Assembly: GCF_030269685.1 (NCBI RefSeq) | Contig: NZ_BSTT01000011.1 | Location: forward strand, 62,001 to 126,000 | Source: Actinomycetospora sp. NBRC 106378 | GTDB lineage: Bacteria; Actinomycetota; Actinomycetes; Mycobacteriales; Pseudonocardiaceae | Direction of reading: 5' to 3' | DNA: 64,000 bases | Part shown: in pieces, positions 7,373 through 62,922 of the stretch | Layout: each line of letters opens with the position of its first letter | Numbering within the stretch: the stretch's first letter is position 1 | The notes under the pieces: model-generated | What the model saw: the letters and a program-made list of their open reading frames with translations, nothing else | The model's database searches: none | Told to the model about the DNA's origin: nothing | Program-made: the position numbers and the translations under genes

Positions 7373-7942
7373 TCACACACGCTCCGCATGCACCACGAGG
7401 TTGTCGGTGTAACTCCGCTCACCCCGGTCGAACGCGCCGGCGCACGTGACGAGCCGCAGGACGTCGTCCGCGGTCGCCCCGAACACCGCGAACGTGGGGA
7501 ACCGGTCCTTGGCCACCTGCTCGGTGCGCGACACCGCGTAGCGGGCGGTGGTGCCGTCCGCCCGACTGAGCTCGACGAGGTCGCCGGGTCGCAGGTCACG
7601 CAGGCGGTAGAACACCGCCGGCCCGGTGCGGGAGTCGACGTGCCCGAGCAGCACCGTGGGTCCGCCGCCGGCCCGGGCCGCTCCCCCGGCGAACCAGCCG
7701 ACGCGCTCGAAGTCCGTCGGGACCTCCGCCGTCCCGTCGGCCGCGAGCCCCAGCCGCTGCACGTCGTCGCGGACCACCCCGATCGCCGGGACGCGCACCG
7801 ACACCGGCGCCGACCCGGCGTCGGGCACCGCAGGGCCGGCGGCGGGTGGCGTACCACCCGCCGTCGGGACCGGGGCGGCGCAGCCGGCGAGGAGCAGCCC
7901 CAGGAGCAGGACCACCACCGCCGGCAGCCGGGAGAGCCCCAC
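7373..7942 (-). CDS. Class F-type sortase, predicted lipoprotein
   Basis: A 189-residue sortase that should join surface proteins to the cell envelope. The N-terminus is a lipoprotein signal with lipobox LLAGC (Cys 21), unusual because most sortases use a plain membrane anchor. The catalytic triad is visible: His in LLGHVDS (residue 101), Cys in VTCAG (167) and Arg in RGERSY (176). Residues 22-48 are a Pro/Ala/Gly linker. The GTG start lies 2 nt after the stop of the CHRD gene, so the two are co-translated, and the CHRD protein is the obvious substrate. The gene converges on the ABC exporter. Confidence 0.88.
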   Translation of the reverse strand: MGLSRLPAVVVLLLGLLLAGCAAPVPTAGGTPPAAGPAVPDAGSAPVSVRVPAIGVVRDDVQRLGLAADGTAEVPTDFERVGWFAGGAARAGGGPTVLLGHVDSRTGPAVFYRLRDLRPGDLVELSRADGTTARYAVSRTEQVAKDRFPTFAVFGATADDVLRLVTCAGAFDRGERSYTDNLVVHAERV

Positions 7943-7944
7943 CG

Positions 7945-8634
7945 TCAGACCCGCGACCGCCGGTAGGCCACCGCACCCGCGGCGCCCGCCGCGACGAGGG
8001 CCGCCGCGCCGACCGCGAGGGGCGCCACGGCGTCGGTCGTGCCGCCGGCGCCGGTCTCGACGCCACCCATCGGGACGGGCGTCAGCTGCCCGCGCACGGC
8101 GCCCGCGGTGAAGCCCGCGGTGTGCGTGTCCCCGAAGAACGCAGCCGGGTTCGCCTCGATCTGCTTCAGCGAGAACCCGGTGCCGCTGTCCTGGCCGTTC
8201 GCCTGGACCCCGGTGGTGAAGGGGCCCTGCAGGCAGCCGGAGCCGGTGCGCGTCGCACCGTCACCCTCCGGGTCCGGGAAGGCGATGCGCGGCGGACCCG
8301 ACGCCCCGGCCGCGGCCTCGTGGATGTGCGTCGCCGTGCGGGCCGGGCTCTGGTACTCGCCGGTGACGCCCTCCAACCGCAGGTCGTAGCAGATGATCTC
8401 CTCGTCGGAGTTGATCCGGTAGTCGAAGGTGCCGGTCGCGCCCGGCTCGCCCGGGGCGGGCTGACCGTTCTGGCCGACGACCGTGTCGGGCGTCGCCATG
8501 ACGGTGAACATGCTGGTGAAGCTCGACGGCTCGTCGACCTGGGCGTCCTGGGCCAGGGCCGCCCCACCGGAGAGCGCGAGGGCGCCGACGGTGAGGGCGG
8601 ACAGGGCGGCGAGCCTGACGGGGGTACGGCGCAC
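7945..8634 (-). CDS. CHRD-domain surface protein with C-terminal anchor
   Basis: A 229-residue secreted protein. The GTG start at 8634 is preceded by AGGAGG at 6 nt, and the product begins with a Sec signal peptide (residues 1-30, ending GGAALAQ). A CHRD-like domain (about 35-180) follows, with the family pattern 'CYDLRLEGVTG', 'THIHEAAAGASGPPRIAF' and 'NPAAFFGDTHTAGFTAGAVRGQL'. The C-terminus is a Gly/Thr stretch (GGVETGAGGTT), a hydrophobic helix (about 197-219) and the basic tail RRSRV, which is the layout of a sortase sorting signal but without LPXTG. The sortase gene follows directly. The gene is transcribed away from the ECF sigma gene from a promoter with the same boxes as the sigma gene's own. 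Confidence 0.85.
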   Translation of the reverse strand: MRRTPVRLAALSALTVGALALSGGAALAQDAQVDEPSSFTSMFTVMATPDTVVGQNGQPAPGEPGATGTFDYRINSDEEIICYDLRLEGVTGEYQSPARTATHIHEAAAGASGPPRIAFPDPEGDGATRTGSGCLQGPFTTGVQANGQDSGTGFSLKQIEANPAAFFGDTHTAGFTAGAVRGQLTPVPMGGVETGAGGTTDAVAPLAVGAAALVAAGAAGAVAYRRSRV

Positions 8635-8672
8635 GGGGGCCTCCTGGGCGTTTCGTCCGGTTGCTCCCGTGA

Positions 8673-8700
8673 CTACGGGCCGAACCACGGCGGCGTTCAC
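8673..8700 (-). promoter_or_regulatory. ECF sigma promoter of the CHRD-sortase operon
   Basis: On the minus strand GTGAACG (8700-8694) and CCGTAG (8678-8673) are separated by 15 bp. The same two boxes at the same spacing face the other way at 8723-8750. The TGAAC/CGT pattern is typical of ECF sigma factors. Transcription would start about 30 nt before the GTG at 8634. Confidence 0.65.
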
Positions 8701-8722
8701 CCCGATTCCCGGTCGATCCGCT

Positions 8723-8750
8723 GTGAACGGCCGCGGGCCGCGATCCGTAG
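8723..8750 (+). promoter_or_regulatory. ECF sigma promoter of the sigma/anti-sigma operon
   Basis: GTGAACG (8723-8729), 15 bp, CCGTAG (8745-8750). It is identical in boxes and spacing to the divergent promoter at 8673-8700, which suggests that the sigma factor drives its own gene and the CHRD-sortase operon. A copy of the window's CCCGACGRCGGG repeat (8756-8767) lies at the expected start site. Confidence 0.65.
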
Positions 8751-8828
8751 GGACTCCCGACGACGGGACCGGGTCGCCGGTCCGCGAGTCGGGAGGAGCG
8801 CCATGACCAGGGCCCGGCGGACGTACCG

Positions 8829-9476
8829 GTGACCGTGACGACCCACCCACACACGTCGATCTACTCCCGGACCGACACGATGACCCCGAACCGGGAGCGA
8901 GGGGTGCACGTGGACGACGGGAACGGGGGCACCCTCGCCGCGGTCGACCTGCGCCGTCCCGCCGACCTCGAGGCCGCCCACCGCGCGCACGCCGGCGAGC
9001 TGCACCGCTTCGCGGCCCGCCACCTCCGCGACGCCGCGGCGGCCGCGGACGTGGTGCAGGAGGTCTTCGTCCGGGCGTGGCGCCACGCCGAGCGCTACGA
9101 CGCCACGGTCGCGAGCCTGCGGGTCTGGCTGTTCACCATCGCCCGCAACCTCGTGGTCGACCAGGTCCGTCGCGACCGCGCCCGCCCGGGGACGCCGACC
9201 GACCCCGGCACGCTCGGCGCGGTGGCCGAACGGGCGTCGCGCGAGCCCGGACGCTCCTTCAGCGACGACCTCGTCACCACGTGGTTCCTCGAGGAGGCGC
9301 TGGGGCGGCTCGGGACCGACCAGCGCACGGCCATCGTCGAGACCTGGCTGCGCGGGCGGCCCCACCCCGAGGTGGCGGGCGAGCTGGGCGTGCCGCTCGG
9401 GACCCTGCGCAGCCGCGTCTTCTACGGCCTGCGCAACCTGCGATCGATCATGGACGACATGGGAGTGCCGCTGTGA
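8829..9476 (+). CDS. ECF RNA polymerase sigma factor
   Basis: A 215-residue sigma-70 family protein. Region 2 (about residues 50-115) contains DVVQEVFVRAWRH and SLRVWLFTIARNLVVDQVRR; region 4 (about 155-205) contains the helix-turn-helix HPEVAGELGVPLGTLRSRVF. The start is uncertain: GTG 8829, ATG 8880 and GTG 8904 are all in frame and none has a strong ribosome binding site; the conserved region begins only at about residue 45, so the shorter forms are possible. It is coupled to the anti-sigma gene by a GTGA overlap. The pairing with an RskA-like anti-sigma suggests the SigK/SigL side of the ECF family. Confidence 0.9.
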   Translation: MTVTTHPHTSIYSRTDTMTPNRERGVHVDDGNGGTLAAVDLRRPADLEAAHRAHAGELHRFAARHLRDAAAAADVVQEVFVRAWRHAERYDATVASLRVWLFTIARNLVVDQVRRDRARPGTPTDPGTLGAVAERASREPGRSFSDDLVTTWFLEEALGRLGTDQRTAIVETWLRGRPHPEVAGELGVPLGTLRSRVFYGLRNLRSIMDDMGVPL

Positions 9477-15338: not shown

Positions 15339-16042
15339 CAGCCTCCAACGGTGACGGTGTCGGTCTTCCCGACGACGGGTGTGGATCGGGTCCGGCGGAC
15401 CCCGGGAGTGACGGCGCGCTGCAGGCCCTGCAGCGCCACCTCGAGGACGATCGCGAGGAGGGCGACGAGCACGGCGCCGCCCGCCATCTGGACGAAGTCG
15501 CGCTGTGCCTGGCCGTCGACGATGTAGCGGCCGAGCCCGCCGAGCGACACGAACGCGGCGATGGTGGCGGTGGCGACGACCTGGAGCGTCGCGGTGCGCA
15601 GCCCGGCGACCATGAGCGGCAGGGCGTTCGGCAGCTCGACCTGGACGAGGATCTGCCGCTCGGTCATGCCGACGCCCCGGGCCGCGTCGACGGCGGCCGG
15701 ATCGACCCCGGAGACGCCGGCGTAGGTCCCCGCGAGCAGCGGCGGGATGGCCAGCAGCATGAGGGCGAGCACCACGGGGGTGAGTCCGAGCCCGATGAGC
15801 AGCACGAACAGCACCAGCACACCGAGCTCGGGCAGCGCCCGTAGGCCGTTGGCCAGGCCCACCACCAGGAAGCGACCGCGGCCCGTGTGCCCGATGTAGA
15901 GGCCGATCGGCACCGCGATCACGGCGGCCACCAGGACCGTCAGGGCGGTGTAACCGAGGTGCTGCAGCAGGCGGGTCGGGATCCCGGTGGTCGAGGACCA
16001 CTGCGCGCTCGCGGTGAACCACGCGATCAGGCTCGAGAACAC
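15338..16042 (-). CDS. Glycine betaine/osmoprotectant ABC permease (second)
   Basis: A 234-residue inner-membrane permease with about five to six hydrophobic helices. The cytoplasmic coupling loop is visible as GVDPAAVDAARGVGMTERQI, the EAA motif that docks on the ATPase. It starts with GTG one base after the previous permease's TGA, and its own stop overlaps the binding-protein start. The C-terminus carries a short basic tail that includes a copy of the window's GACGACGGG repeat (encoding TPVVGK). Confidence 0.9.
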   Translation of the reverse strand: MFSSLIAWFTASAQWSSTTGIPTRLLQHLGYTALTVLVAAVIAVPIGLYIGHTGRGRFLVVGLANGLRALPELGVLVLFVLLIGLGLTPVVLALMLLAIPPLLAGTYAGVSGVDPAAVDAARGVGMTERQILVQVELPNALPLMVAGLRTATLQVVATATIAAFVSLGGLGRYIVDGQAQRDFVQMAGGAVLVALLAIVLEVALQGLQRAVTPGVRRTRSTPVVGKTDTVTVGG

Positions 16043-16691: not shown

Positions 16692-17743
<1,052 letters not shown>

Positions 17744-25331: not shown

Positions 25332-25679
25332 TCAGCGCCGCACGATGCGCCCGGGGTGCGGCCAGAGCCGGTGGGTCACGACGGCGAGCGCCTCGGCCGG
25401 ACCCAGCGTGCGCGAGTCGGTCGACGCGAGGGCCGCGTCGCCGAGGGCGAACCAGGACCCGCCGTCGGGAAGGGCAAGACGCTTGACCGAGAGCTGTCCC
25501 GGCCGCGCCGACCAGCGCACGAGCGCGACGTCGCCGGGCCGGGGACGGCGTCCGGGCCGGGCGAGGACGACGTCCCCGTCACGCAGCGTCGGTGCCATCG
25601 ACGCGCCCCGGACGAGGACCCGGCGAGGTACCCGGACCCGCAGGGCCGAAAACGCCGCTCGCAGACGCCTCACCTGCAC
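25332..25679 (-). CDS. sodX: Nickel superoxide dismutase maturation protease (S26 family)
   Basis: A 115-residue S26 peptidase, much shorter than signal peptidase I. The catalytic serine is in GASMAPTL (residue 27) and the lysine in SVKRLAL (66). It is divergent from nickel SOD with 118 bp between starts, which fixes its role: it removes the SOD propeptide and exposes the nickel-binding N-terminus. In Streptomyces the partner gene lies next to sodN as well. The start GTG 25679 is tentative; a GTG two codons later is equally good. Confidence 0.88.
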   Translation of the reverse strand: MQVRRLRAAFSALRVRVPRRVLVRGASMAPTLRDGDVVLARPGRRPRPGDVALVRWSARPGQLSVKRLALPDGGSWFALGDAALASTDSRTLGPAEALAVVTHRLWPHPGRIVRR

Positions 25680-29396: not shown

Positions 29397-29514
29397 ACAG
29401 CGGGTCCCGACGGCGGGTCGCGACGGCTGCCCGGCCCGGCGAGGGGCGCCCCCGGCCCACCTGTCCGCGCGAGGGTGCCCTTCGGTCGAGCGCGTCCGTG
29501 GCCCGGCCGGCGAC

Positions 29515-31536: not shown

Positions 31537-32240
31537 GCCTCGCTCACCCCGTCTCCCATGGTCGAGCTCCGCTGCGCTGCGTCTCCCGCACCGTCCCGGA
31601 TGAAACCGCGGTCGCGCGCGGTGTCGGTCAGCGCGTCGCGCAGCTGCCGCCGGCCGCGGTGCAGCCGCGACATGACGGTGCCGATCGGCGTGCCCATGAT
31701 CTCGGCGATCTCCTTGTAGGCGAACCCCTCGACGTCGGCGAGGTAGACCGCCATCCGGAAGTCGTCCGGCAGGGCTTGCAGCGCCTCACGGATGTCGGTG
31801 TCCGGCAGCCGGTCCAGCGCCTCGGCCTCGGCGCTCGGCAGGCCGGCCGACGAGTGCTCGGCCGACTGCGAGAGCTGGTAGTCGGTGATCTCGTCGGTGG
31901 AGTTCTGCTGCGGCTGCCGCTGCTTCTTGCGGTAGGTGTTGATGTAGGAGTTCGTGAGGATGCGGTAGAGCCAGGCCTTCAGGTTCGTCCCGGGCTTGAA
32001 CGACGTGAACGACGAGTACGCCTTGAGCACCGTCTCCTGGACCAGGTCCTCCGCGTCCGGCGGGTTGCGGGTCATCCGCATCGCGGCCGCGTACAGCTGG
32101 TCGACCATCGGCATCACGTCGCGCTCGAACCGTTCAGCGCGTGCAGCGACGGTCTCGGTCTCCAGGTCGGCGGGAGTGGACCCGCCCTGCTGCACGTCGG
32201 TCGACGGATCGACCTCCGCCTGCTCGACCGCCTCGGACAC
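31533..32240 (-). CDS. sigR: Thiol-stress ECF sigma factor SigR/SigH
   Basis: 235 residues from GTG 32240, which has GGAG 5 nt upstream. Region 2 contains [20 protein letters not shown] and [20 protein letters not shown]; region 4 contains [20 protein letters not shown]. These match M. tuberculosis SigH almost word for word. It controls thioredoxin and other thiol-repair genes. An in-frame ATG at 32372 would add 44 residues; it sits right after a SigR-type promoter, so a longer isoform like Streptomyces SigR' is likely. The rsrA gene follows with a 4-nt overlap. Confidence 0.95.
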
Positions 32241-32990: not shown

Positions 32991-33569
32991 ATGCCGAAGG
33001 ACGGGAGCGCGACCCGGCGGCGCCTGCTGGACGCGGCGACCGCGGAGTTCTCGGCTCGCGGCATCGCCGGGGCCCGCGTCGACCGGATCGCCGCGGCCGC
33101 CGAGGCGAACAAGGCCCAGATCTACGCGTGGTTCGACTCCAAGGACGGCCTGTTCGACGCCGTCTTCCGCGAGCACCTGGCGCTGATCGTCGACCTCGTG
33201 CCCTTCGACGCGCACGACCTCCCGGGGTACGCGGTGCGCCTCTACGACGCCTACCTGCAGAGACCCGCCGTCATCCTGCTCGCGGTGTGGGCACGGCTCG
33301 AGCGCGTCCCGAGCGGCGACCTGCTCACCGCCGTCCGCGACGAGGTCGAGGGCAAGCACGCCGCGATCGCCGAGGCCCAGGCGCAGGGCCTGGTCGACGG
33401 GGCGTTCGAGCCCGCCGACGTGTATTCCCTGGTCATCGCGATGTCGATGACGTGGTCGCCCGCGGCGACGGTCGTCGCCGCCGCGCCCGGCGACCCGCAG
33501 CGCGACCACACCCGCCGTCGGGAAGCCCTGGCGCGGGCGGTGCGGGGCGCCCTGACCCCTTTCGGGTGA
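32991..33569 (+). CDS. TetR family transcriptional regulator
   Basis: 192 residues. The helix-turn-helix (about 10-52) reads TRRRLLDAATAEFSARGIAG then VDRIAAAAEANKAQIYAWFD. The C-terminal domain has the pattern of TetR proteins that follow an 'NKAQIYAWFDSK' recognition helix, with a tryptophan-containing dimer part. The ATG at 32991 is set by a -10 box 6 nt upstream. An operator-like site overlaps that box and recurs before the SDR gene, so its targets may include the phenolic acid genes. The ligand is unknown. Confidence 0.88.
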   Translation: MPKDGSATRRRLLDAATAEFSARGIAGARVDRIAAAAEANKAQIYAWFDSKDGLFDAVFREHLALIVDLVPFDAHDLPGYAVRLYDAYLQRPAVILLAVWARLERVPSGDLLTAVRDEVEGKHAAIAEAQAQGLVDGAFEPADVYSLVIAMSMTWSPAATVVAAAPGDPQRDHTRRREALARAVRGALTPFG

Positions 33570-35893: not shown

Positions 35894-37261
35894 ATGACCG
35901 CGTGGAGCGCCCCGACCGCCGACGGCCCCGTGCACGGGTCGGTGGCCGTCCCGGGCTCGAAGTCGGTCACCAACCGGGCCCTGCTGCTCGCCGCCCTCGC
36001 GACCGACGGCGTCACCCGCACCGTCGCCGGGGCCGCCCGCTCGCGCGACACCACGCTCATGGTCGGGGGGCTGGCGGCAATGGGGGTGGGCACGGACGTC
36101 GCCCCGGGTCGCGACGGGACCCTCGACGTCACGATCACCGCACCCCACCACCTGTCCGGCGGCCGGGTCGACTGCGGCCTGGCCGGCACGGTGATGCGCT
36201 TCCTCCCACCCGCCGCCGCCCTCGCGAGCGGGCCGGTGGAGTTCGACGGCGACCCGCACGCCCGCACGCGTCCGATGGGCGGCGTGCTCGAGGGGCTGCG
36301 CGGGCTCGGCGTCGCCCTGGAGCCTGCCGACGCGGACCGGCTGCCGTTCACCGTGCTCGGCCGCGGCGGCGTGCGCGGGGGCCCGGTCACCGTCGACGCC
36401 TCGGCGTCCTCCCAGTTCGTCTCGGGCCTGCTGCTCTCCGGCGCCCGGTACGACGACGGCCTCGCGGTCACCTCCTCGACGCCGGTCCCGTCGCTGCCGC
36501 ACGTGGACATGACGGTGACGATGCTGCGGCTCGCGGGCGTCACGGTGACCAGCGAGGACGCCCGCTGGGCGGTGTCGGCCGGGCCGGTCACCCCCGACCC
36601 GCGGTTCGTCGTGGAGCCCGACCTCTCGGGCGCCGCGGTCTACCTGGCCGCCGCGATGATCACCGGGGGCCGGGTGACGGTCGCCGGGTGGCCCGAGCGG
36701 CGGCCCGGGGCGAACCCGGAGCGGCACACGCAGTCGCGCCACGACCTGCCCGACCTGCAGCCGCTCGGGGCCGTGCGCCGCACGCTCGAGGCGTTCGGGG
36801 CCCAGCTCTCGGAGGGACCCGACGGGCTGACGGTCGTGGGCCCCGACCGGCTGCAGGGGGTCGACGTCGACCTCGGCGAGATCGGCGAGCTCACCCCGAC
36901 CGTCACCGCGCTCGCCGTGGTGGCGTCGCTCGGCGGGCACACGTCGCGGCTGCGCGGGGTCGCCCACATCCGGGGCCACGAGACCGACCGGCTCGCCGCC
37001 CTGGCCGCCGAGGCCGCTGCGGTCGGCGCGCGGGTCACCGAGACCGAGGACGGTCTGGAGGTGCACCCGCCGTCGGGAACGCTCCGCCCGACCCGTCCGT
37101 GGGGGGCCTACGCCGACCACCGGATGGCGACGGCGGGCGCGCTGCTCGGGCTCGTCGTACCGGGGCTGGAGATCGACGACGTGGCCGCGACGGGCAAGAC
37201 GCTGCCGGACTTCGCCGACGACTGGTCGGCCCTGGTGCGGGGGGCGGGGATCCCGGCGTGA
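35894..37261 (+). CDS. aroA: 3-phosphoshikimate 1-carboxyvinyltransferase (EPSP synthase)
   Basis: 455 residues, shikimate pathway step six, joining shikimate 3-phosphate and phosphoenolpyruvate. Seen are PGSKSVTNRALLLAAL (substrate-binding Lys and Ser), DCGLAGTVMRF, SSQFVSGLLLSG, ELTPTVTALAVVASL (catalytic Asp region), LRGVAHIRGHETDRL and YADHRMATAGALLGL. Around residues 257-280 the segment WPERRPGANPERHTQSRH is longer and more basic than in mycobacterial AroA as I remember it. The CCCGCCGTCGGG motif at 37066 encodes PPSG in a late loop. Confidence 0.93.
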   Translation: MTAWSAPTADGPVHGSVAVPGSKSVTNRALLLAALATDGVTRTVAGAARSRDTTLMVGGLAAMGVGTDVAPGRDGTLDVTITAPHHLSGGRVDCGLAGTVMRFLPPAAALASGPVEFDGDPHARTRPMGGVLEGLRGLGVALEPADADRLPFTVLGRGGVRGGPVTVDASASSQFVSGLLLSGARYDDGLAVTSSTPVPSLPHVDMTVTMLRLAGVTVTSEDARWAVSAGPVTPDPRFVVEPDLSGAAVYLAAAMITGGRVTVAGWPERRPGANPERHTQSRHDLPDLQPLGAVRRTLEAFGAQLSEGPDGLTVVGPDRLQGVDVDLGEIGELTPTVTALAVVASLGGHTSRLRGVAHIRGHETDRLAALAAEAAAVGARVTETEDGLEVHPPSGTLRPTRPWGAYADHRMATAGALLGLVVPGLEIDDVAATGKTLPDFADDWSALVRGAGIPA

Positions 37262-37322
37262 CGATGCGGCTCTCCTGCCACCGGACGACAGCAACGACGC
37301 TTTCCTGTCACCGGGAGAAGGG

Positions 37323-41584: not shown

Positions 41585-42547
41585 GTGCCCCGAGTCGCGA
41601 TCGCCTGCCAGGGCGGCGGCAGCCAGACGGCGTTCACCGCCGGCGTGCTGCGGCCGCTGCTGCGCTCCCCCGAGGTCGAGCCCGTCGCCTTCACCGGGAC
41701 CTCCGGCGGCGCGATCTGCGCGCTGCTGGCCTGGTACGGCTGGCGGACGGGCGGTCGGCGCCGCGCGGTGGAGCTGCTCGAGGGCTTCTGGCGGGACAAC
41801 GCGGCGACGAGCCCGCTCGACGCGCTGACCAACGCCGTCGGGGTCGGAGTGCTGCGCCTGCGCGACCTCGGCCTGCTGCCGCTGCCGGCGTTCGACCCCT
41901 ACCGGTTCCCGGAGATCGCCCGCACGCAGCTGCAGACCCTCCTCGAACGGTGGGTGGACTTCGGGCTGCTCGCGGCGCTGCCCCGCGACGAGGGGCCGGT
42001 GCTGCAGATCGGCGCGGTCGAGGTGCGCAGCGGCGCGTTCCGGCGGTTCGACTCGCGGCGCGGCGAGATCACGGTGGAGACGGTGCTGGCGAGTGCCGCG
42101 ATCCCGACGCTGTTCCGGGCCGTCGACACCGACGACGGTGTGTACTGGGACGGCGTGTTCTCCGAGAACCCGCCCGTCCGCGACCTCCCCGCCCTCGCCC
42201 CGGACGCGCTCTGGATCGTGCAGCTGTTCCCGCAGCGCATCGACGCGGAGCCGCGCTCACCCGGGGCGATCGCCGACCGGCGCGCCGAGCTCACCGCGAA
42301 CCTGTCGCTGGAGCAGGAGATCGACGCCATCGGGAAGATCAACGAGTTCGTCCGCGCGGGCTACCTCGACGGGGCCGGCTACCGCGAGGTCGGCATCGAG
42401 CGCATCCAGCTCGACCGTCGCCTCGACTCCGCGTCCGCCGCCGACCGCTCCCCCGCGTTCCTGCAGGGCCTGATCGACGACGGCGTCCGCGCGGGCGAGG
42501 CGTTCCTCGCCCGACAGCCCGCGGCCCGCGCGGCGACGGGGACCTGA
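41585..42547 (+). CDS. Patatin-like phospholipase
   Basis: 320 residues. The oxyanion loop QGGGSQTAF (about 9-17), the nucleophile elbow FTGTSGGAI (GxSxG) and the catalytic DG in YWDGVFSENPP form the Ser-Asp dyad of patatins. The middle section (LLERWVDFGLL, GAVEVRSGAFRRFD) is typical of actinobacterial forms. It should cleave acyl esters of lipids. The GTG start is preceded by CATCAT at 6 nt, a weak -10. Confidence 0.87.
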   Translation: MPRVAIACQGGGSQTAFTAGVLRPLLRSPEVEPVAFTGTSGGAICALLAWYGWRTGGRRRAVELLEGFWRDNAATSPLDALTNAVGVGVLRLRDLGLLPLPAFDPYRFPEIARTQLQTLLERWVDFGLLAALPRDEGPVLQIGAVEVRSGAFRRFDSRRGEITVETVLASAAIPTLFRAVDTDDGVYWDGVFSENPPVRDLPALAPDALWIVQLFPQRIDAEPRSPGAIADRRAELTANLSLEQEIDAIGKINEFVRAGYLDGAGYREVGIERIQLDRRLDSASAADRSPAFLQGLIDDGVRAGEAFLARQPAARAATGT

Positions 42548-42561
42548 GGCCGCCGCTCCGT

Positions 42562-42623
42562 CCGCGAGAGTCACACCAGCCAGGCCCCGACGTCCCGCGA
42601 CCTGCCCCACGTGCATCTCGCGG
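42562..42623. repeat. 62-nt palindromic repeat, copy 2
   Basis: It begins CCGCGAGAGTCACACCAGCC and ends CCCACGTGCATCTCGCGG; the ends are complementary. Copy 3 follows 89 bp later, and the tandem pair fills the gap between the convergent patatin and DUF6912 genes. Confidence 0.65.
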
Positions 42624-42650
42624 ACGGGAGGCCGGTGCGCCCTGCTCCGT

Positions 42651-42712
42651 CCGCGAGAGTCACACCAGGCAGACCCGAACGCCCCGCGACCTGCCCCACG
42701 TACATCTCGCGG
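42651..42712. repeat. 62-nt palindromic repeat, copy 3
   Basis: It begins CCGCGAGAGTCACACCAGGC and ends CCCACGTACATCTCGCGG. It is nearly identical to copy 2, as are the roughly 25 bp between them, so the pair arose by tandem duplication of an 89-bp unit. Confidence 0.65.
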
Positions 42713-42729
42713 CCGGGAGGCCGGCGCGC

Positions 42730-43248
42730 TCACCCGCCGTCGGGAACGTCCAGCTCCAGCACGAACGGCAGCTCCTGGACGCCGTACCAGGCCAGGTCGT
42801 GGTCCTCGGCGTCGCCGAGCGTGAGCTCGGCGTCCTCGTCGCCCAGGTCGGCGGCGTCGATGACGGCCGCGGCGGCGCGCACGGCGTCCGCGGCCTCGGC
42901 GAGATCGAGGTGGATCGAGGCGAGCCGCTTCGACGGGATGGGACCCGCCACCCGGACGACCGCGGCGTCGAGGTCCGGGCGCAGGGTCACGTCGTCGACG
43001 TCGGCCGCGACGACCGCCCGGCGCGGCGGCGTCTCCGGGTCGTCGGCCAGCTCGGTGGCGAGCAGCCGCAGCGAGGCCCGCGCCGCCTCGCTCATGGCGA
43101 CGTACTCCAGCTCCTCGTCGTCACCCGCGAGGTAGGACTCGCGCAGCGCCGGGGTCAGCGCGAACGCGGTCCCGGAGAGCGGCTGGACCTGCCCGTCGGC
43201 GAGCAGCCGGCGCAGCCCGGCCACCGTGGTCGGGACGAAGACCCTCAC
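42730..43248 (-). CDS. DUF6912 family protein
   Basis: 172 residues. The opening VRVFVPTTVAGLRRLLADGQ, then GTAFALTPALRESYLAGDDE and the acidic EELEYVAMSEAARASLRLLA, is the conserved actinobacterial DUF6912 pattern. Function unknown. Its last codons (VPDGG-stop) are made by a copy of the CCCGACGGCGGGTGA repeat. It lies 28 nt after the patatin gene on the same strand. Confidence 0.78.
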   Translation of the reverse strand: MRVFVPTTVAGLRRLLADGQVQPLSGTAFALTPALRESYLAGDDEELEYVAMSEAARASLRLLATELADDPETPPRRAVVAADVDDVTLRPDLDAAVVRVAGPIPSKRLASIHLDLAEAADAVRAAAAVIDAADLGDEDAELTLGDAEDHDLAWYGVQELPFVLELDVPDGG

Positions 43249-52301: not shown

Positions 52302-52362
52302 ACCTCGATGCTCGGCCGCCCCGCCCTCCGGTCGCCAGCGGACCGCCCGGGCCTGGGGACGA

Positions 52363-52374
52363 CCCGTCGTCGGG
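52363..52374. repeat. CCCGACGRCGGG repeat (intergenic example)
   Basis: CCCGTCGTCGGG lies in the gap between comF and lpqB. Other exact copies of the core (either strand) start at 7857, 8756, 15368, 16956, 17574, 25458, 29406, 33511, 37066, 42733, 54255, 55560, 57141, 61208 and 62258. Thirteen of the 16 also have the flanks TCCCGACGRCGGGT. See the findings. Confidence 0.75.
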
Positions 52375-52436
52375 AGCGGGCTGGGGACGATCCGCTGACC
52401 CGATCGCCGACGCGGTGGCGCGGACGGGCGAGCGGT

Positions 52437-54236: not shown

Positions 54237-56005
54237 CGTGCGTCCTCCGGGGTCCCCGACGACGGGTCGGGCAGCTCCTCCGGCACGACCACCGCGAACT
54301 CGCCGGTCTCGGGCGGGGGCAGCGCCGTGCCCGTCGTGCCCGCGGCCTCGTGGATGCCGGGCTCGGCCTCGGCGGGTGCCGCCGAGACGGGGATGAGCGG
54401 GAGCGGGCTGGTGCGCAGCAGGTCCCCGGCGGTGCGCGGCAGCGTCAGCCGGAACACCGCGCCGTGGTCGGTCTCGCCCCACGCCTGCAGCCAGCCGCCC
54501 TGCAGGCGCGCGTCCTCGAGGCTGATGGCGAGCCCCAGCCCCGTGCCGCCGCTGCGGCGCTGGCGCGAGGGGTCGGCGCGCCAGAACCGGTTGAACACCA
54601 GGCCGGCCTCGCCGGGCTTCAGGCCGATCCCGTGGTCGCGCACGACGACCGCCACCGCGTGCTCGTCGGCCGCCACCCGCACCTCGACCGGCCGGCTCTC
54701 GCCGTGGTCGATCGCGTTGGCCAGCAGGTTGCGCAGGATCCGCTCGACGCGACGCGGGTCGACCTCCGCGGCGGCGGGCTCGGCGAGGTCGAGCAGCAGC
54801 GGCGTCGCGGTCTCGTCGACGAGGTGGCGCACGGTCTCCGCGGCACGGCGCACGACGTCGCGGACGTCGACCCGCTCCACGGCGAGCTCGGCCACCCCGG
54901 CGTCGAGGCGGCTGATCTCGAGCAGGTCACCCAGCAACGACTCGAAGCGGTCCAGCTCGTCGACGAGCAGCTGCGCGCTCCGGTGGGCGATCCGGTCGGT
55001 GTCCTTCCGGTCCTCGGCCTGCGCGTGCAGCACCTCGGCCGCCATCCGCACCGTCGTCAGCGGCGTCCGCAGCTCGTGGCTGACGTCGGAGGTGAACCGT
55101 CGCTGCAGCGCCCCGAACTCCTCGAGCTGGTGGATCTGCTGCTGGATGCTCGCGGCCATCTCGTTGTAGGACTCGGCGAGGCGCGCCACCTCGTCGTCGC
55201 CGTAGACCGGCATGCGCTCGTCGAGGTGTCCGTCGGCGAACCGCTCGGCCACGTCCGCGGCCTGGCGCACCGGACGCACGACCTGGCGCGTGACGATGCT
55301 CGAGATCCCCGCGAGCAGACCCAGCAGCGCCAGCCCGGCCAGCGCCAACGTCGACTGGATCAGCGCGAGGGTCCGCTGCTCGGCCGTGAGCGGGAAGATC
55401 AGGTACAGCTGCAGGTTGCGTCCGGCGGTCCGCACCGGCTGGCCGACGACGTACGCCGGGACGTCCGGGCGCCCGGTCCTCGTCACCGTCACGTACTTCG
55501 TCGCGAGGAAGCCCTTGAGCACCGGGGCGCGCAGCTGCGGCGGCACCACCCCCGCGGGTCCCGACGACGGGTCGGTGACCGATCCGCTCGACCCCGTCGC
55601 CCCGGGTGTCCCGATGGCCTCGGTGCCGGCGACGAGCACGGCCTCGAAGGCCCCGGCGTCGCGGTCGGACCCGGAGCCGGAGGAGGTCAGCCCGTCGAGC
55701 GCCTCGTCGAGCGTGGCCTGCGTGCCGTCGCGGTCGGGATCGACGCGGGCGAGGTCGCGCTCCAGGTTGCCGCGGCTGATGTCGGCCTGCACGAGGGCGG
55801 CCTGTTCCTTGCCCTCGAGCAGCCGGTCCGCGATCTGGGTCTGCAGGACGAGGCCGAGGACGAGCACCACGACGGTCGACATCGCGACCGTGGACAGCAC
55901 GACCCGCAGCTGCATCGACCGGCGCCACAGCACGCGGACGGCGCCGACCCGCTCCGCGAGGGCCAGCTCGGCGCGGCGGCGGAGCCCGGCGAGACGCTCA
56001 GCCAC
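54233..56005 (-). CDS. mtrB: Sensor histidine kinase MtrB
   Basis: 590 residues. Two transmembrane helices (about 33-54 and 215-236) flank an extracellular domain. A HAMP domain (about 237-290), the phospho-acceptor motif FTSDVSHELRTPLTTVRM (His about 309) and the HATPase blocks NLLANAIDHGES, DHGIGLKPGE and GGTGLGLAIS follow. The C-terminal 70 residues are a variable Pro/Ala tail. MtrB-MtrA controls cell wall and division genes. Two DPSSG segments in the variable parts are encoded by the CCCGACGACGGG repeat (54255, 55560). The start is GTG, 21 nt after mtrA. Confidence 0.95.
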   Translation of the reverse strand: MAERLAGLRRRAELALAERVGAVRVLWRRSMQLRVVLSTVAMSTVVVLVLGLVLQTQIADRLLEGKEQAALVQADISRGNLERDLARVDPDRDGTQATLDEALDGLTSSGSGSDRDAGAFEAVLVAGTEAIGTPGATGSSGSVTDPSSGPAGVVPPQLRAPVLKGFLATKYVTVTRTGRPDVPAYVVGQPVRTAGRNLQLYLIFPLTAEQRTLALIQSTLALAGLALLGLLAGISSIVTRQVVRPVRQAADVAERFADGHLDERMPVYGDDEVARLAESYNEMAASIQQQIHQLEEFGALQRRFTSDVSHELRTPLTTVRMAAEVLHAQAEDRKDTDRIAHRSAQLLVDELDRFESLLGDLLEISRLDAGVAELAVERVDVRDVVRRAAETVRHLVDETATPLLLDLAEPAAAEVDPRRVERILRNLLANAIDHGESRPVEVRVAADEHAVAVVVRDHGIGLKPGEAGLVFNRFWRADPSRQRRSGGTGLGLAISLEDARLQGGWLQAWGETDHGAVFRLTLPRTAGDLLRTSPLPLIPVSAAPAEAEPGIHEAAGTTGTALPPPETGEFAVVVPEELPDPSSGTPEDAR

Positions 56006-56704: not shown

Positions 56705-57405
56705 GTCTCAATGGTGTCACTTCTCACCGACGATCCGGGAGCGAATGCGTCCCCGAGCACGGCATCCAGCACGGCGTCAGCCGTACGGGTGAGCGCGTTG
56801 TCCCCCGACTGCCGATTGTCGGACACCCACCAGGGTGCCAGCCACTGCTCCTCGACGAGGGCGTCGTAGACCGCCGCACACCGTCCCTGCAGTTCGGCGT
56901 CGGCCTCGAAGCCGTCGGCGGCGCGGTCGGGCCGCTGCGCCGCACGGTCGCGGACCCGCTGCGCCGCGAGCTCCGGCGGCACCCGGACCAGCACCTGCGC
57001 GTCCGGCACCGGGAGCCCGAACCGCTCGATCTCGGTGGCCGCCACCCAGGCCGCGAACCCGCCGACGCCCTCGTGCAGCCGCGCCGAGCCGTACGCCGCG
57101 TTCGACGCCACGTACCGGTCGACCAGCAGCAGATCGCAGTCCCGACGGCGGGTGGCGAGCTCCTCGCGCGCGGCCCGGCGGTCGAGGGCGAACAGGAGGG
57201 CCATCGCGTGCACGGAGGCGCCGGTGTCGCCGTGCCCGCCGCGCAACGCCTCGCCGGCCAGTGCCGCGTGGACGTCGTCGTCGTAGCGCGGGAAGGCGAT
57301 CGCGCCGACCGTCGCGCCCCGGTGCTCGGCCGCGCGGTGCAGGGCGGCCACCAGGGTCGCCTTGCCCGCCCCGTCCAGGCCCTCGACGGCCACCAGAACA
57401 CCCAC
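56701..57405 (-). CDS. tmk: Thymidylate kinase
   Basis: 234 residues. The P-loop EGLDGAGKATLV (about 8-19), FPRYDDDVHAALAGEALRGG and the DR motif LLVDRYVASNAAYGSARL match the actinobacterial dTMP kinase (Rv3247c type). It makes dTDP for DNA synthesis. GTG 57405 is chosen because TAGCGT sits 8 nt upstream and the conserved start (VGVLVAVEG) begins there; longer frames would read into the repeat array. It heads the tmk-mtrA-mtrB-lpqB operon. Confidence 0.93.
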   Translation of the reverse strand: MGVLVAVEGLDGAGKATLVAALHRAAEHRGATVGAIAFPRYDDDVHAALAGEALRGGHGDTGASVHAMALLFALDRRAAREELATRRRDCDLLLVDRYVASNAAYGSARLHEGVGGFAAWVAATEIERFGLPVPDAQVLVRVPPELAAQRVRDRAAQRPDRAADGFEADAELQGRCAAVYDALVEEQWLAPWWVSDNRQSGDNALTRTADAVLDAVLGDAFAPGSSVRSDTIET

Positions 57406-57451
57406 GGACGGCCACGCTAGCCAGGAACGCAGCGTGACGGCGGTGCGGGAC

Positions 57452-57513
57452 CGGCGAGGTGCACACCACGCAGGGCGAGCAGCCCCGAGATCTGCCCCAC
57501 GTGAACCTCGCGG
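57452..57513. repeat. 62-nt palindromic repeat, copy 4
   Basis: It begins CGGCGAGGTGCACACCACGC and ends CCCACGTGAACCTCGCGG. With copy 5 (83 bp further) it fills the gap between tmk and ahcY, which are on the same strand. Confidence 0.65.
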
Positions 57514-57534
57514 ACCGGCTGCCCGGCCCGCCCG

Positions 57535-57596
57535 CGCCGAGGTGCACGCCAGGCAGGGCCCACGGCCACGGAACCTGCCCCACGTGAACCTCGCGG
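57535..57596. repeat. 62-nt palindromic repeat, copy 5
   Basis: It begins CGCCGAGGTGCACGCCAGGC and ends CCCACGTGAACCTCGCGG. The right arm is identical to that of copy 4. Confidence 0.65.
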
Positions 57597-57617
57597 CGAG
57601 GGCACACCCGGACACGA

Positions 57618-57667: not shown

Positions 57668-59149
57668 TCAGTACCGGTAGTGCTCCGGCTTGTACGGGCC
57701 CTCGACGTCGACGCCGATGTACTCGGCCTGCTCCTTGGTGAGCTTGGTCAGCTCCGCGCCGAGTGCCTCGACGTGGACCTTCGCGACCTTCTCGTCCAGG
57801 TGCTTCGGCAGGCGGTAGACGCCGATCGGGTACTCGTCCTGCTTCGTGAAGATCTCGATCTGCGCGATCGTCTGGTTCGCGAACGAGTTCGACATGACGA
57901 AGCTGGGGTGCCCGGTGGCGTTGCCCAGGTTCAGCAGGCGACCCTCGGACAGCAGGATGATCGAGTGGCCGTCCTCGAAGCGCCACTCGTCGACCTGCGG
58001 CTTGATGTTGATCCGCGTGGCGCCGGACTTCTCGAGCTTCTCGACCTGGATCTCGTTGTCGAAGTGGCCGATGTTGCCCAGGATCGCCTGGTGCTTCATC
58101 CGCTTCATGTGCTCGAGCGTGATGATGTCCTTGTTGCCGGTCGTCGTGATGACGATGTCGGCCTCGTCGATGACGTTCTCGACGGTGTTGACGTCGTAGC
58201 CCTCCATCAGCGCCTGGAGCGCGCAGATGGGGTCGGCCTCGGTGACGGTCACGCGGGCACCCTGGCCACGCAGCGACTCCGCGGAGCCCTTGCCGACGTC
58301 GCCGAAGCCGCAGATGACGGCCTTCTTGCCGGAGATCAGCACGTCGACGGCGCGGTTGATGCCGTCGATGAGCGAGTGGCGGCAGCCGTACTTGTTGTCG
58401 AACTTCGACTTGGTGACCGAGTCGTTGACGTTGATCGCCGGGAAGAGCAGCTTGCCCTCGTTGAAGAACTCGTACAGGCGGTGCACGCCCGTCGTGGTCT
58501 CCTCGGTGACGCCGCGGATGCCCGAGGCCACCTTGGTCCAGTGCTGCGGGTCCTCGGCGAGCGAGCGACGCAGGGTCTCGAGGACGACCTGGTACTCGGC
58601 GGGGTCGTCGAGCTCGGTGCTCGGCACGACGCCGGCCTTCTCGAACTCCACGCCCTTGTGGACGAGCATGGTGGCGTCGCCGCCGTCGTCCAGGATCATG
58701 TTCGGGCCGCGGGTCTCACTGTCGCGCCACGCGAGCATCTGCTCGGCGCACCACCAGTACTCCTCCAGCGACTCGCCCTTCCAGGCGAAGCACGCGACGC
58801 CCTTGGGCTCCTCGGGGGTGCCGTGCGGGCCGACGACGACCGCGGCGGCCGCGTGGTCCTGCGTGGAGAAGATGTTGCAGGAGGCCCAGCGGACCTCGGC
58901 ACCGAGCTCGACCAGGGTCTCGATGAGCACCGCGGTCTGGATCGTCATGTGCAGCGAGCCGGAGATGCGCGCGCCGTGCAGCGGCTTCGCCTCGGAGTAC
59001 TCGCGCCGCAGGGCCATCAGCCCGGGCATCTCGTGCTCGGCGAGGCGGATCTCGCGGCGACCGAAGTCGGCCTGCGAGAGGTCGGCGACCGCGAAGTCGA
59101 TCCCGTTCTTCTCGGCGTACTTCTCGTGCGTGGTGCCTACTGCTGCCAT
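57668..59149 (-). CDS. ahcY: S-adenosylhomocysteinase
   Basis: 493 residues, the size of mycobacterial SahH, which includes an insert. It splits S-adenosylhomocysteine into homocysteine and adenosine, keeping methylation running. Visible are [27 protein letters not shown], the NAD loop [27 protein letters not shown] and the C-terminal lid KPEHYRY. The Lys/Asp active site is in [18 protein letters not shown]. An S-adenosylhomocysteine riboswitch precedes it. The gene lies after tmk in M. tuberculosis too (Rv3248c). Confidence 0.97.
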
Positions 59150-59574: not shown

Positions 59575-61197
59575 GTGCTCGGACAGATGCAGGACCGTCC
59601 CCTCGCCCTCCCCCACGTGTTCCACCGGGCCGAGCAGATGTTCGGTCACAAGACGCTCACCGGGATCGGCGTCGGCGGCGCCGTCACCACGACGACGTAC
59701 GCGGACTGGGGGCAGCGCGTCCGCCGGACCGCCGCGGCCCTCGACGCCCTCGGCGTCGCCGAGGATGCCCGCGTCGGCACCTTCTGCTGGAACACCCCGG
59801 CCCACCTCGAGCTGTACTTCGCCGTGCCCTGTACGGGCCGCGTGCTGCACACGCTCAACATCCGGCTCTTCCCCGAGCAGCTCGTCTACATCGTCAACCA
59901 CGCCGACGACGAGGTGATCTTCGTCGAGCGGGCGCTGCTCGGGATGCTCTGGCCGCTCGCCGAGCAGATGCCGAACGTGAAGAAATTCGTCGTCATCGAC
60001 GACGGCGCCGACACCGAGATCCCCGACGACGAGCGCATCGTCGACCACGCGGAGCTGCTCGCCTCGGTCGAGCCGTTCCCCGGTCTCTTCGAGGTCGCGG
60101 ACGAGAACCGCGCCGCCGCCATGTGCTACACGTCGGGCACCACCGGCAACCCGAAGGGCGTCGTCTACTCCCACCGCTCGACGGTGCTGCACTCGATCGC
60201 GGTGCTCATCGCCGACGTCGCGGGGCTCGTCGAGCGGGACGTCCTGCTCCCGATCGTCCCGATGTTCCACGCCAACGCCTGGGGCACGCCCTACGCGGCG
60301 GTGTTCTGCGGCGCCTCGATCGTCATGCCCGGGCCGAACATGGTGCCGAAGGCGATCGCCGGGATGCTGCGCGACCACGACATCACCGTCACCGCCGGCG
60401 TGCCGACCATCTGGATGGGCGTCCTGCCCGAGCTCGAGCGCTCCGACGTCCCGCACCTGCGGATCGTGCTCTGCGGCGGCTCCGCGGTGCCGCGCTCGCT
60501 CTCCGAGGGCTGGCGGGAGAAGGTCGGGCTGCCGATCACGCAGGCGTGGGGCATGACCGAGACCAGCCCGATCGCGACGACGGGCATGCTCCGGTCGATC
60601 CACGACGGGCTCTCCGACGACGAGCTCGCCGACGTCCGCGCCACGCAGGGCCAGCCGACCCCGCTGGTCGAGCTCCGCCTCGCCGACCCCGACACCGGCG
60701 AGATCGTCCCCTGGGACGGCACCTCCTCGGGCGAGCTGCAGGCCGCCGGCCCGTGGATCGCGGCGTCGTACTACCGCAACGAGGACGGCGGCAAGCAGTT
60801 CACCGCCGACGGCTGGCTGCGCACCGGCGACGTCGCGATCATCGACCCGAGCGGCTACGTCCGGCTCGTCGACCGCACGAAGGACCTGGTCAAGTCCGGC
60901 GGCGAGTGGATCTCCTCGGTGGACATGGAGAACCAGATCATGGGCATGCCCGAGGTCGCCGAGGCCGCGGTCATCGCCGTCCCCGACGAGAAGTGGTCGG
61001 AGCGGCCGATGGCCTGCGTGGTGGTGCGCGAGGGCGCCGAGCTGACCCCCGACCAGGTCAAGGAGTACCTGGCGACGAAGGTCGCGAAGTGGCAGATCCC
61101 CGACGACGTCGTCTTCATCGACGAGGTGCCCAAGACCTCGACCGGGAAGTTCTCGAAGAAGACGCTGCGCGAGAAGTTCGCGGCCGAGAAGGGCTAG
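59575..61197 (+). CDS. Long-chain fatty acid-CoA ligase family protein
   Basis: 540 residues of the acyl-adenylate superfamily, activating a fatty or other carboxylic acid with ATP and CoA. The phosphate loop is YTSGTTGNPKGVVYSHRS (about 183-200), then the A5 motif AWGMTETSP, the GWLRTGD motif, and the C-terminal hinge DRTKDLVKSGGEWIS with the catalytic lysine in KTSTGKFSKK. It resembles the AlkK/FadD medium-to-long-chain branch. The GTG start has AGGAAGG upstream. It is a single gene followed by a strong hairpin. Confidence 0.92.
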   Translation: MLGQMQDRPLALPHVFHRAEQMFGHKTLTGIGVGGAVTTTTYADWGQRVRRTAAALDALGVAEDARVGTFCWNTPAHLELYFAVPCTGRVLHTLNIRLFPEQLVYIVNHADDEVIFVERALLGMLWPLAEQMPNVKKFVVIDDGADTEIPDDERIVDHAELLASVEPFPGLFEVADENRAAAMCYTSGTTGNPKGVVYSHRSTVLHSIAVLIADVAGLVERDVLLPIVPMFHANAWGTPYAAVFCGASIVMPGPNMVPKAIAGMLRDHDITVTAGVPTIWMGVLPELERSDVPHLRIVLCGGSAVPRSLSEGWREKVGLPITQAWGMTETSPIATTGMLRSIHDGLSDDELADVRATQGQPTPLVELRLADPDTGEIVPWDGTSSGELQAAGPWIAASYYRNEDGGKQFTADGWLRTGDVAIIDPSGYVRLVDRTKDLVKSGGEWISSVDMENQIMGMPEVAEAAVIAVPDEKWSERPMACVVVREGAELTPDQVKEYLATKVAKWQIPDDVVFIDEVPKTSTGKFSKKTLREKFAAEKG

Positions 61198-61209
61198 GAG
61201 ACGGGTTCC

Positions 61210-61240
61210 CGACGGCGGGTCGCGACGCGACCCGCCGTCG
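61210..61240. terminator. Hairpin terminator after the acyl-CoA synthetase gene
   Basis: CGACGGCGGGTCGCG and its complement form a stem of about 14 bp with almost no loop. The left arm contains an exact CCCGACGGCGGG repeat (61208-61219), and the right arm a one-mismatch copy in the opposite orientation; two facing copies of the repeat could have built this hairpin. Confidence 0.75.
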
Positions 61241-61386
61241 GCGCAGTCCGCGGTGTGTGTCGCGGTGCGCATCCTGCGAGCAGGACCGACACGAGCAGGG
61301 CGCCGAGGCCGACCGGGCGGCGGGGACGGGAGGTTCGCACCCGCCGACCCTGCCGCCGACGACGTGGCGAGGACGTGCGCCGCGGC

Positions 61387-62922
61387 TCAGTCCCGCGCGC
61401 CGACCGTGGTCTCCGGCAGCTCGCCGCGCTCCCGCTTGCCCAGCACCGAGTTCCGCCGCGAGTAGGCGAAGTAGATGATCACGCCGAGCACCATCCAGCC
61501 GATGAACCGGATCCAGGTCTCGACGGTCAGGTTGATCATCAGCCAGAGGCACGAGATCACCGCGAGGGTCGCGACGATCGGCAGGCCCTTCACGACGAAG
61601 CTGCGGGGCAGGTCGGGCTGCTGGCGGCGCAGGACCCAGGTGCCGACGGCCACGAGCACGAAGGCGAACAGCGTGCCGATGTTGACCATCGACTCGAGCT
61701 CGTCGGCCGGGAAGAACCCGGCGAGCAGGGCACACAGCGTCCCGATGATGATCGTGATGGTGACCGGGGTCCCGCGGGAGCCGGTCCGCGCGAGGTTGCG
61801 CGGGAGCAGCCCGTCACGGCTCATCGCGTAGAAGACGCGGCTCTGGCCGAGCATCAGCACCATGACCACCGTGGTGAGACCGGCGAGCGCGCCGACCTCG
61901 ATGATCGTCGAGGCCCAGTTCGCCCCCACCAGGGTGAACGCGGTGGACAACGTGGCGGTGTCGCCGCCCGGCCCGGTCCGCAGCTGGGTGTAGCTCACCA
62001 TGCCGACCAGCACGAGCGAGGTGGCCACGTAGAGGACGGTGACGACGCCGAGCGACCCGAGGATGCCGCGCGGCAGGTCCTTCTGCGGGTTCTTCGTCTC
62101 CTCGGCCGTGGTGGACACGGCGTCGAACCCGATGAACGCGAAGAAGACGAGCGAGGCGCCGGCGAGCAGGCCGTACACGCCGTAGGTCGATCCGTCGCTG
62201 CCCGCGATCAGCGACAGCAGCGAGGCCTTCACGCCGCCGTCGCCGGCCTGTTCCCCGCCCGACGGCGGGATGAACGGCGAGTAGTTCGCGGACCGGATGT
62301 AGAACGCGCCCACGACGATCACGAGCAGCACCACGCCGACCTTGATCGCGGTCATCACGGTGGAGACGGTGCTGGAGAGCTTGATCCCCAGGATCAGCAC
62401 CACGGTGAGGACCGCGATGATGAGCATCGCACCCCAGTCGACGTCGAGGCCGCCGAGGGACACCGTGGTGGCGGTGCCGTCGCCGGTGAACAGCTGGCCC
62501 AGGTACTTCGCCCAGCTGGTGGAGACGACGGCTGCGCCGAGCGCGTACTCCAGCACGAGGTCCCAGCCGATGATCCAGGCGATGAACTCGCCGAACGTCG
62601 CGTAGGAGAACGTGTAGGCGCTGCCCGCGACCGGCACGGTCGAGGCGAACTCCGCGTAGCAGAGGCCCGCGAACCCGCAGGCGATCGCGGCGATGACGAA
62701 GGAGATCGCCACGGCGGGGCCGGTGATGTCCCCGGCCACGCGCGCGGTGATGGTGAAGATGCCGGCGCCGATGAGGACGGCGACCCCGAAGACGGTGAGG
62801 TCCAGCGCACCGAGCTCGCGACGCAGTTTGCTGTCCGGCTCGTCGGTGTCGCGGATCGACTGCTCCACCGACTTGGTGCGGAACAGGCTGTTCGTGCGCG
62901 GCGAAGGTGTGGTCGTCGCCAT
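61387..62922 (-). CDS. Cationic amino acid transporter family permease (APC superfamily)
   Basis: 511 residues with about 12 membrane helices. The N-terminus LRRELGALDLTVFGVAVLIG then AGIFT is the APC helix-1 motif; GLCYAEFASTVPVAGSAYTF and FDAVSTTAEETKNPQKDLPR are typical of the CAT/YfnA group. A cytoplasmic tail (RRNSVLGKRERGELPE) ends it. It probably imports amino acids such as lysine or arginine. The M. tuberculosis orthologue region has Rv3253c here. The gene stands alone; the 5' end is separated from manA by 112 bp. Confidence 0.92.
   Translation of the reverse strand: MATTTPSPRTNSLFRTKSVEQSIRDTDEPDSKLRRELGALDLTVFGVAVLIGAGIFTITARVAGDITGPAVAISFVIAAIACGFAGLCYAEFASTVPVAGSAYTFSYATFGEFIAWIIGWDLVLEYALGAAVVSTSWAKYLGQLFTGDGTATTVSLGGLDVDWGAMLIIAVLTVVLILGIKLSSTVSTVMTAIKVGVVLLVIVVGAFYIRSANYSPFIPPSGGEQAGDGGVKASLLSLIAGSDGSTYGVYGLLAGASLVFFAFIGFDAVSTTAEETKNPQKDLPRGILGSLGVVTVLYVATSLVLVGMVSYTQLRTGPGGDTATLSTAFTLVGANWASTIIEVGALAGLTTVVMVLMLGQSRVFYAMSRDGLLPRNLARTGSRGTPVTITIIIGTLCALLAGFFPADELESMVNIGTLFAFVLVAVGTWVLRRQQPDLPRSFVVKGLPIVATLAVISCLWLMINLTVETWIRFIGWMVLGVIIYFAYSRRNSVLGKRERGELPETTVGARD

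Follow-up and report, generated by a model that had tools for sequence, protein, structure and literature searches.

Only two bacterial families, the proteobacterial Neisseriaceae and Pasteurellaceae, are described as discriminating between DNA molecules by means of short, specific words (PMC12616744). The DNA uptake sequences (DUS) of Neisseria reach 97% identity, compared with an average of about 85% for conserved sequence, and they occupy permissive parts of the core genome (PMC2397512). Neighbouring pairs of DUS, or of the uptake signal sequences (USS) of the Pasteurellaceae, form terminator hairpins (PMC1852404), the genomes with DUS or USS that have been studied show a gene-orientation bias (PMC2346458), and the Neisseria uptake receptor ComP is reported to be a type IV minor pilin (PMC12616744). 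Here, we describe the 14-base word TCCCGACGRCGGGT (in its surrounding context, TTCCCGACGRCGGGTC), which is scattered through a stretch of 64,000 nucleotides from Actinomycetospora sp. NBRC 106378 (contig NZ_BSTT01000011.1, positions 62,001 to 126,000 of the forward strand), hereafter called the window. We tentatively favor, with a confidence a little short of even, the reading that this word is a DNA-level watermark that would work like the uptake sequences of Neisseria and Haemophilus. The likeness to DUS rests on its abundance (a short word in hundreds of copies or more), its presence on both strands, its restriction to one clade, its conservation while neighboring positions drift (as in PMC2397512) and its inverted pairs that resemble terminator hairpins (as in PMC1852404); abundance, both strands and terminator-like pairs are shared with USS as well (PMC1852404). 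Uptake sequences had not been considered in the sequence-only reading from which this analysis started, and of the explanations weighed they account best for the inverted-pair hairpins and for the way the word is conserved.

The excess of the word is real and extends over the whole genome. In the window, the 12-base core has 16 matches against a mean of 0.52 in shuffled sequence (maximum of three in 100 shuffles), all of them at exactly the places and on the strands given by the sequence-only reading, and the thirteen copies for which it had noted a flanking T on both sides are full 14-mers (13 of the 16). Under a third-order Markov model, no other word of this length that recurs four or more times in the window is as over-represented as the 14-mer, and the excess persists when mismatches are allowed: the 14-mer has 48 matches with up to two mismatches (8.8 expected), and 63 sites carry the core with at most one mismatch (14.3 expected). 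The single-mismatch examples picked out earlier were found at 1065, 2312 and 44013, within one to three bases of the places assigned to them, and single-mismatch copies are indeed numerous, with 901 to 1,251 in each of the word-rich genomes introduced below. In the genome from which the window comes (G000; 6.31 Mb in 52 contigs), the core occurs 1,075 times (550 on the plus and 525 on the minus strand) versus 21 times for the reversed word (11 and 10), and the exact 14-mer 595 times (287 and 308) versus a single reversed copy (0 and 1). With a G+C content of 74% in the window and many copies encoding PDGG, PVVG or PSSG, the word could in principle simply reflect base composition, codon usage or protein motifs, but we consider this extremely improbable. 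The 474 called genes (438 kb; gene calls throughout are simple in-house calls) hold 40 14-mers, compared with a mean of 0.28 and a maximum of one in 100 runs of codon-preserving shuffles, coding copies occupy all six combinations of frame and strand, and six of the ten congeners with 0 to 5 copies were sampled and have 73 to 75% G+C. Thus, neither of the two outcomes that the sequence-only reading had named as fatal to the signal, similar counts under a codon-aware null and a lack of enrichment elsewhere in the genome, was found.

Among the 18 Actinomycetospora genomes searched, G000 included, the word is very unevenly distributed. Five genomes are word-rich, with 595 exact 14-mers in G000, 703 in G002, 613 in A. 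termitidis Odt1-22 (G006), 636 in G014 and 735 in A. soli SF1 (G016), corresponding to about 1.1 to 1.8 exact copies per 10 kb. Three are intermediate (103 in G009, 117 in G015 and 43 in G013, which is 59% complete), and the remaining ten, among them A. straminea JCM 17983 (G004), are word-poor, with 0 to 5 copies each. When up to one mismatch is allowed, the counts per genome become 1,514 to 1,954, 208 to 418 and 22 to 49, respectively. In an unrooted tree of a single locus, FtsK (PF09397), the five word-rich genomes cluster together, the three intermediate ones stand beside them and the ten word-poor ones lie on the opposite side, with support of 99 to 100%; this is compatible with a single origin on the stem of the eight and a subsequent increase, or with an increase and then partial loss. 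Outside the genus, the highest exact count in 102 genomes of other genera was five (G021), and none of 394 genomes drawn from the class, other than G000, exceeded four copies. The titles and abstract openings of the papers listed on uptake sequences in Actinobacteria and on Actinomycetospora (20 of 136 papers for the genus) contained no report of the word or of an uptake system of this kind, and at that level the only match to the 12-base cores concerns a plant genus.

Conservation was assessed in one syntenic region, up to 144 kb long, by comparing four or five of the word-rich genomes in species pairs that are reciprocal and not independent. Mean identity is 92% in the motif columns and 83% in the flanks (256 reciprocal site comparisons), and flank identity falls to its minimum, 0.70 to 0.73, at ten bases or less from the word. 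The whole 14-mer is unchanged between species in 128 of the 256 comparisons; full identity is seen for 24% of CG-rich 14-mers, and for 18% of 14-mers that resemble the word but differ from it at three or four positions. For the fourfold-degenerate sites of 69 coding copies and their flanks, 667 of 702 (95.0%) are identical within the word and 4,671 of 7,032 (66.4%) beside it, while the corresponding numbers for amino acids are 775 of 837 and 9,541 of 10,797. Therefore, it is the DNA word, more than the encoded peptide, that is maintained, and the earlier proposal of a signal at the DNA level is strongly supported by the codon null, the use of all frames and this fourfold-site conservation alike. 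Word sites are retained but also undergo turnover: among the 43 orthologous sites compared across four word-rich genomes, 28 align in every genome, and of these 28 the word is exact in all four genomes at 4, in at least two at 20 and in only one at 8.

The placement of the word was analyzed for 150 copies in 1.164 Mb of four word-rich genomes. Called genes contain 108 of them (58 sense, 50 antisense), 37 are intergenic, three lie at gene edges and two at the ends of stretches. The peptides that result from the word are PDGG or PDDG (36), PVVG or PAVG (22), PSSG or PPSG (17), PTTG or PTAG (16), TRRR (11) and SRRR (6). Per 10 kb, the density is 1.1 in genes, 1.2 in divergent gaps, 2.2 in tandem gaps and 7.1 in convergent gaps. 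In addition, some copies are arranged as inverted pairs: 11 plus-minus pairs lie within 45 bases (both arms together having at most three mismatches), nine of them with a start-to-start distance of 20 to 23, and eight begin 3 to 39 bases past the end of a called gene; three of the 11 are located within genes, and some represent the same site in several species.

The context of 85 cores shows a T before the core in 75% and a T after it in 65%, then a C in 64%; upstream of the leading T, T (41%) and G (35%) prevail, and word position 9 is A in 65% and G in 35%. Single substitutions are found mostly at both ends, at positions 3 to 4 and at position 9, and hardly at positions 5, 7, 8 and 10. The full word of 14 bases is no palindrome and has an asymmetric center; its core is near-palindromic. 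These features bear on the idea that we are dealing with a word like HIP1, the highly iterated palindrome of cyanobacteria, kept in place by a clade-specific enzyme, either an orphan methyltransferase or a repair enzyme with a bias. HIP1, too, is highly repeated, uneven among relatives and rare in some of them, and it is tied to orphan methyltransferases (PMC4390886), and one-mismatch copies are common here. However, HIP1 is an 8-base palindrome, whereas the present word is longer and asymmetric, and hairpin pairs would not be predicted, and we regard such an origin as quite unlikely.

Neither strand is preferred along the chromosome. In 14 stretches of one 885-kb contig, 30 cores lie on the plus and 24 on the minus strand, a mixture on the basis of which we rejected a polar chromosome arm. 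In G002, a genome assembled as one contig, a 16-base form divides 54/67 by strand, with the strands mixed throughout among the first 100 matches listed (4.8 of 6.2 Mb) and two word-free gaps among these matches, at about 1.92 to 2.24 and 3.79 to 4.17 Mb. The FtsK-orienting polar sequences (KOPS) and architecture-imparting sequences (AIMS) are likewise short words found across the chromosome, but the word described here is non-polar and therefore no KOPS-type segregation-orienting sequence. It might instead, as the sequence-only reading had proposed for a chromosome-organizing or recombination protein, be the binding site of a clade-specific cytoplasmic protein, such as a nucleoid-organizing, repair or recombination protein, held by purifying selection at roughly one site per 10 kb. 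The conserved sites, their restriction to one clade, the near-palindromic core and the spread over the listed matches of G002, apart from the two gaps of 0.3 to 0.4 Mb, would all suit such a protein, which explains conservation and spread equally well as uptake does. Yet on its own it predicts neither the hairpin pairs past stop codons nor the approximately sixfold higher density in convergent gaps than in genes, and we hold it to be rather unlikely, though the strongest of the rival readings. If it were nonetheless correct, the site would be new and unusually long and dense for a chromosomal binding site, and its reader would have to differ between close relatives.

Under the favored reading of a DUS-like watermark, an envelope DNA-binding protein would favor word-carrying DNA in natural transformation, and this DNA would pass from a Flp/Tad pilus via ComEA to ComEC. 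Once imported, such DNA would recombine into the chromosome and thereby preserve and multiply the word at any coding or intergenic place that tolerates it, and some neighboring inverted copies would have been co-opted as terminator-like hairpins. We infer that the competence genes would be active in uptake, that uptake would be sequence-specific and that a single envelope protein would act as reader. ComEC was found in 16 of the 18 genomes (PF03772 search), the misses being G003 (83% complete) and G013; in G014 and G006, stops interrupt the ComEC alignment, but the open frames there measure 799 and 801 amino acids, and we therefore presume that the stops precede the true start. ComEA is present at 15 of 15 loci fetched, and CpaE-, TadA-, TadB-, TadC-, Flp-, TadE- and TadF-like genes occur in eight of eight genomes looked at, where the Tad, Cpa and Flp names are our assumption from resemblance, except for the TadA-like ATPase, which rests on a family search (PF00437). 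A competence set of comEA, comEC and Flp pili is described for Micrococcus luteus (PMC6370729). That this would be the first DUS outside the Neisseriaceae and Pasteurellaceae, of a third and recent origin, in an actinobacterium that takes up DNA through Flp/Tad pili and has surviving congeners with none, a little or all of the uptake word, appears possible to us, though somewhat less probable than its opposite. If true, it would constitute a third independent case of sequence-tagged DNA uptake, in Actinobacteria, and since the genus spans genomes with few (0 to 5), some (43 to 117) and many (595 to 735) copies, selection could be tested there against uptake-driven spread.

Several observations weigh against uptake. 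The orientation bias within genes reported for DUS and USS is absent (58 sense versus 50 antisense copies). The plus-minus pairs are a small minority of all copies and partly repeated sites, and other orientations occur too (within 60 bases, 12 plus-minus, 6 minus-plus, 8 minus-minus and 3 plus-plus). Only 3 of 102 windows, at two tract-like places, strongly favor a grouping of G000 with G002, a number insufficient to link recombination with the word in general. ComEC, ComEA and the Tad/Flp-like genes are also present in word-poor congeners and do not track the word; therefore, these parts alone cannot explain it, and a changed specificity of an envelope protein would be required. No PF07963 pilin was detected in the 18 genomes, hence no ComP-like receptor was recognized, and Tad/Flp-like genes stand in place of the PF07963 type IV pilins of the Pasteurellaceae, whose USS is an unrelated word. 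The helix-hairpin-helix (HhH) part of ComEA carries changes fixed in the word-bearing clade, but over the whole protein, with 14 of 118 sites changed on that branch, ComEA is not exceptional next to an LpqB-like (45 of 282) and an HPF-like protein (12 of 115), and unrelated proteins range from 0 to 16%; ComEA divergence was accordingly dropped as a clue to the receptor, as were the T2SSE ATPases, which occur in 16 of 18 genomes and are not clade-specific. Finally, the titles and abstract openings of the papers listed contained no natural transformation data for Actinomycetospora. The proposed system would differ from DUS in its phylum, in its density and in its lack of intragenic strand bias. 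As a separate observation, the tadA-like gene of the intermediate G015 is split into two pieces about 57 kb apart (L236 and L237; C9, near 1.815 and 1.873 Mb), looking as if an element had entered.

To relate the copies to their surroundings, we list those in the window, where the gene names mtrA, mtrB, lpqB, secA, ahcY, tmk, EPSP synthase and others are presumed from resemblance:

7856..7869, minus strand: 14-mer TCCCGACGGCGGGT, within a called gene.
8755..8768, plus strand: core, one flanking base mismatched (TCCCGACGACGGGA); lies between two divergently oriented called genes.
15367..15380, plus strand: 14-mer, antisense in a called gene (TPVVG).
16955..16968, minus strand: 14-mer, sense in a called gene (PTTG).
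17573..17586, plus strand: 14-mer, antisense in the same gene as the 16955 copy (DPSSG).
25457..25470, minus strand: 14-mer, intergenic by the gene calls; alignment to relatives looks coding.
29405..29418, plus strand: 14-mer, between convergent called genes; alignable orthologue in 0 of 7 genomes compared.
33510..33523, minus strand: 14-mer, antisense near the 3' end of a gene (TRRR); three of the four other word-rich species carry it exactly, and G016 differs by one base.
37065..37078, minus strand: 14-mer, antisense in the EPSP synthase-like gene; exact or one base off in the four other word-rich species, absent in the two intermediate and one word-poor species compared.
42732..42745, minus strand: 14-mer running into a stop codon; exact in three other word-rich species.
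52362..52375, minus strand: 14-mer, between called genes; G016 is 10 and G006 13 bases shorter there.
54254..54267, plus strand: core, one flanking base mismatched; antisense in the MtrB-like gene.
55559..55572, plus strand: 14-mer, also antisense in the MtrB-like gene; all four other word-rich species have it exactly, and both intermediate species compared have one-mismatch forms.
57140..57153, plus strand: 14-mer, antisense in the Tmk-like gene; exact or one base off in the four other word-rich species.
61207..61243, plus strand: inverted word pair, the second arm with two mismatches, forming a 15-bp hairpin between convergent genes; it starts 9 bases past a called stop codon (-38.7 kcal/mol with near flanks, z -4.4).
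62257..62270, plus strand: core only, with flanks G and A; the same core is present in word-poor G005, and it is therefore probably a chance match.

Four of these copies had been placed between genes before; our simple gene calls agree and add the one at 25458 (5 of 16), where the alignment suggests that the original placement within a gene may be right.

How the copies arose bears on the proposal, made in the sequence-only reading, of a spreading micro-repeat that enters new places cleanly as a unit of about 14 bases. In its favor, length changes are more frequent at word sites than at controls: comparisons with G015 show no net change of length in 19 of 44 cases and those with G009 in 5 of 23, versus 82% and 80% of controls, and the word-bearing side is 9 to 15 bases longer in 8 of 41 comparisons with word-rich relatives that lack the word at that site (a figure that has no control set). 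At 52363, relatives show gaps. However, the copies at 42733 and 57141 face non-word sequence of equal length in G015, that at 37066 differs by three bases, and the length differences are scattered without a single peak; thus, the copies sit in indel-prone, permissive places. No single insertion unit stands out, though unit-like gains or losses are compatible with the data, and insertion would leave the later conservation at fourfold sites unexplained. The varying length gaps therefore lend the clean-insertion part of the proposal little weight, and we consider a mobile micro-repeat very unlikely. Small dispersed repeats of the repetitive extragenic palindromic (REP) type insert as units, mostly between genes. 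They resemble the word in being short, dispersed and partly arranged as inverted pairs, but 108 of the 150 copies here lie within called genes and no single unit size is apparent. At some intergenic word sites, relatives carry quite different short repeats, which indicates that such junctions turn over fast.

The possibility that congeners carry diverged "dialects" of the word was also explored, in 83 kb each of eight word-poor or intermediate genomes and again in 109 to 166 kb each of six of them. The top words looked like local or rarer repeats, and no dispersed word like TCCCGACGRCGGGT was found in the six larger samples, so dialects at a like density are unlikely, though a rare diverged form may exist. 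A word around AGCAGGCCGAACGCGAAGCC has 7 to 10 copies in 83 kb of word-poor G012 (L066 to L069, L035) and is taken as local. Two further dispersed words were noted in the word-rich genomes. The first, AGCAACGACGCTTTC (window position 37290), has 10, 3 and 6 matches in samples of G000, G002 and G016 and none in nine other samples, and forms an inverted pair in places. The second, GAGAGTGCCGTT, has 9, 2, 2 and 3 matches in four word-rich samples and none in eight others, and is present in the window as an inverted pair (14346 with 14375).

Some other features of the window deserve mention. Between 2401 and 4400, G000 is 96.5 to 98.5% identical to G002 and only 81 to 92% to G016 and G006, which likely reflects recombination between lineages. 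In the ahcY-like gene (57668 to 59149), identity is 99% to G002, 98% to G014, 95% to G006 and only 92% to G016, whereas outside this gene G016 is about as close to G000. A repeat of about 83 to 89 bases is present as two adjacent copies each at 42538 to 42715 and 57428 to 57599, mostly between called genes; its copies share 63 to 83% identity with one reference copy, and their ends look nearly complementary. Lastly, positions 31548 to 31593, in a gene that we presume to encode a sigma factor, have matches of 30 to 45 bases in most congeners (3 to 37 per genome), some of which stand in arrays at a spacing of 36 bases.

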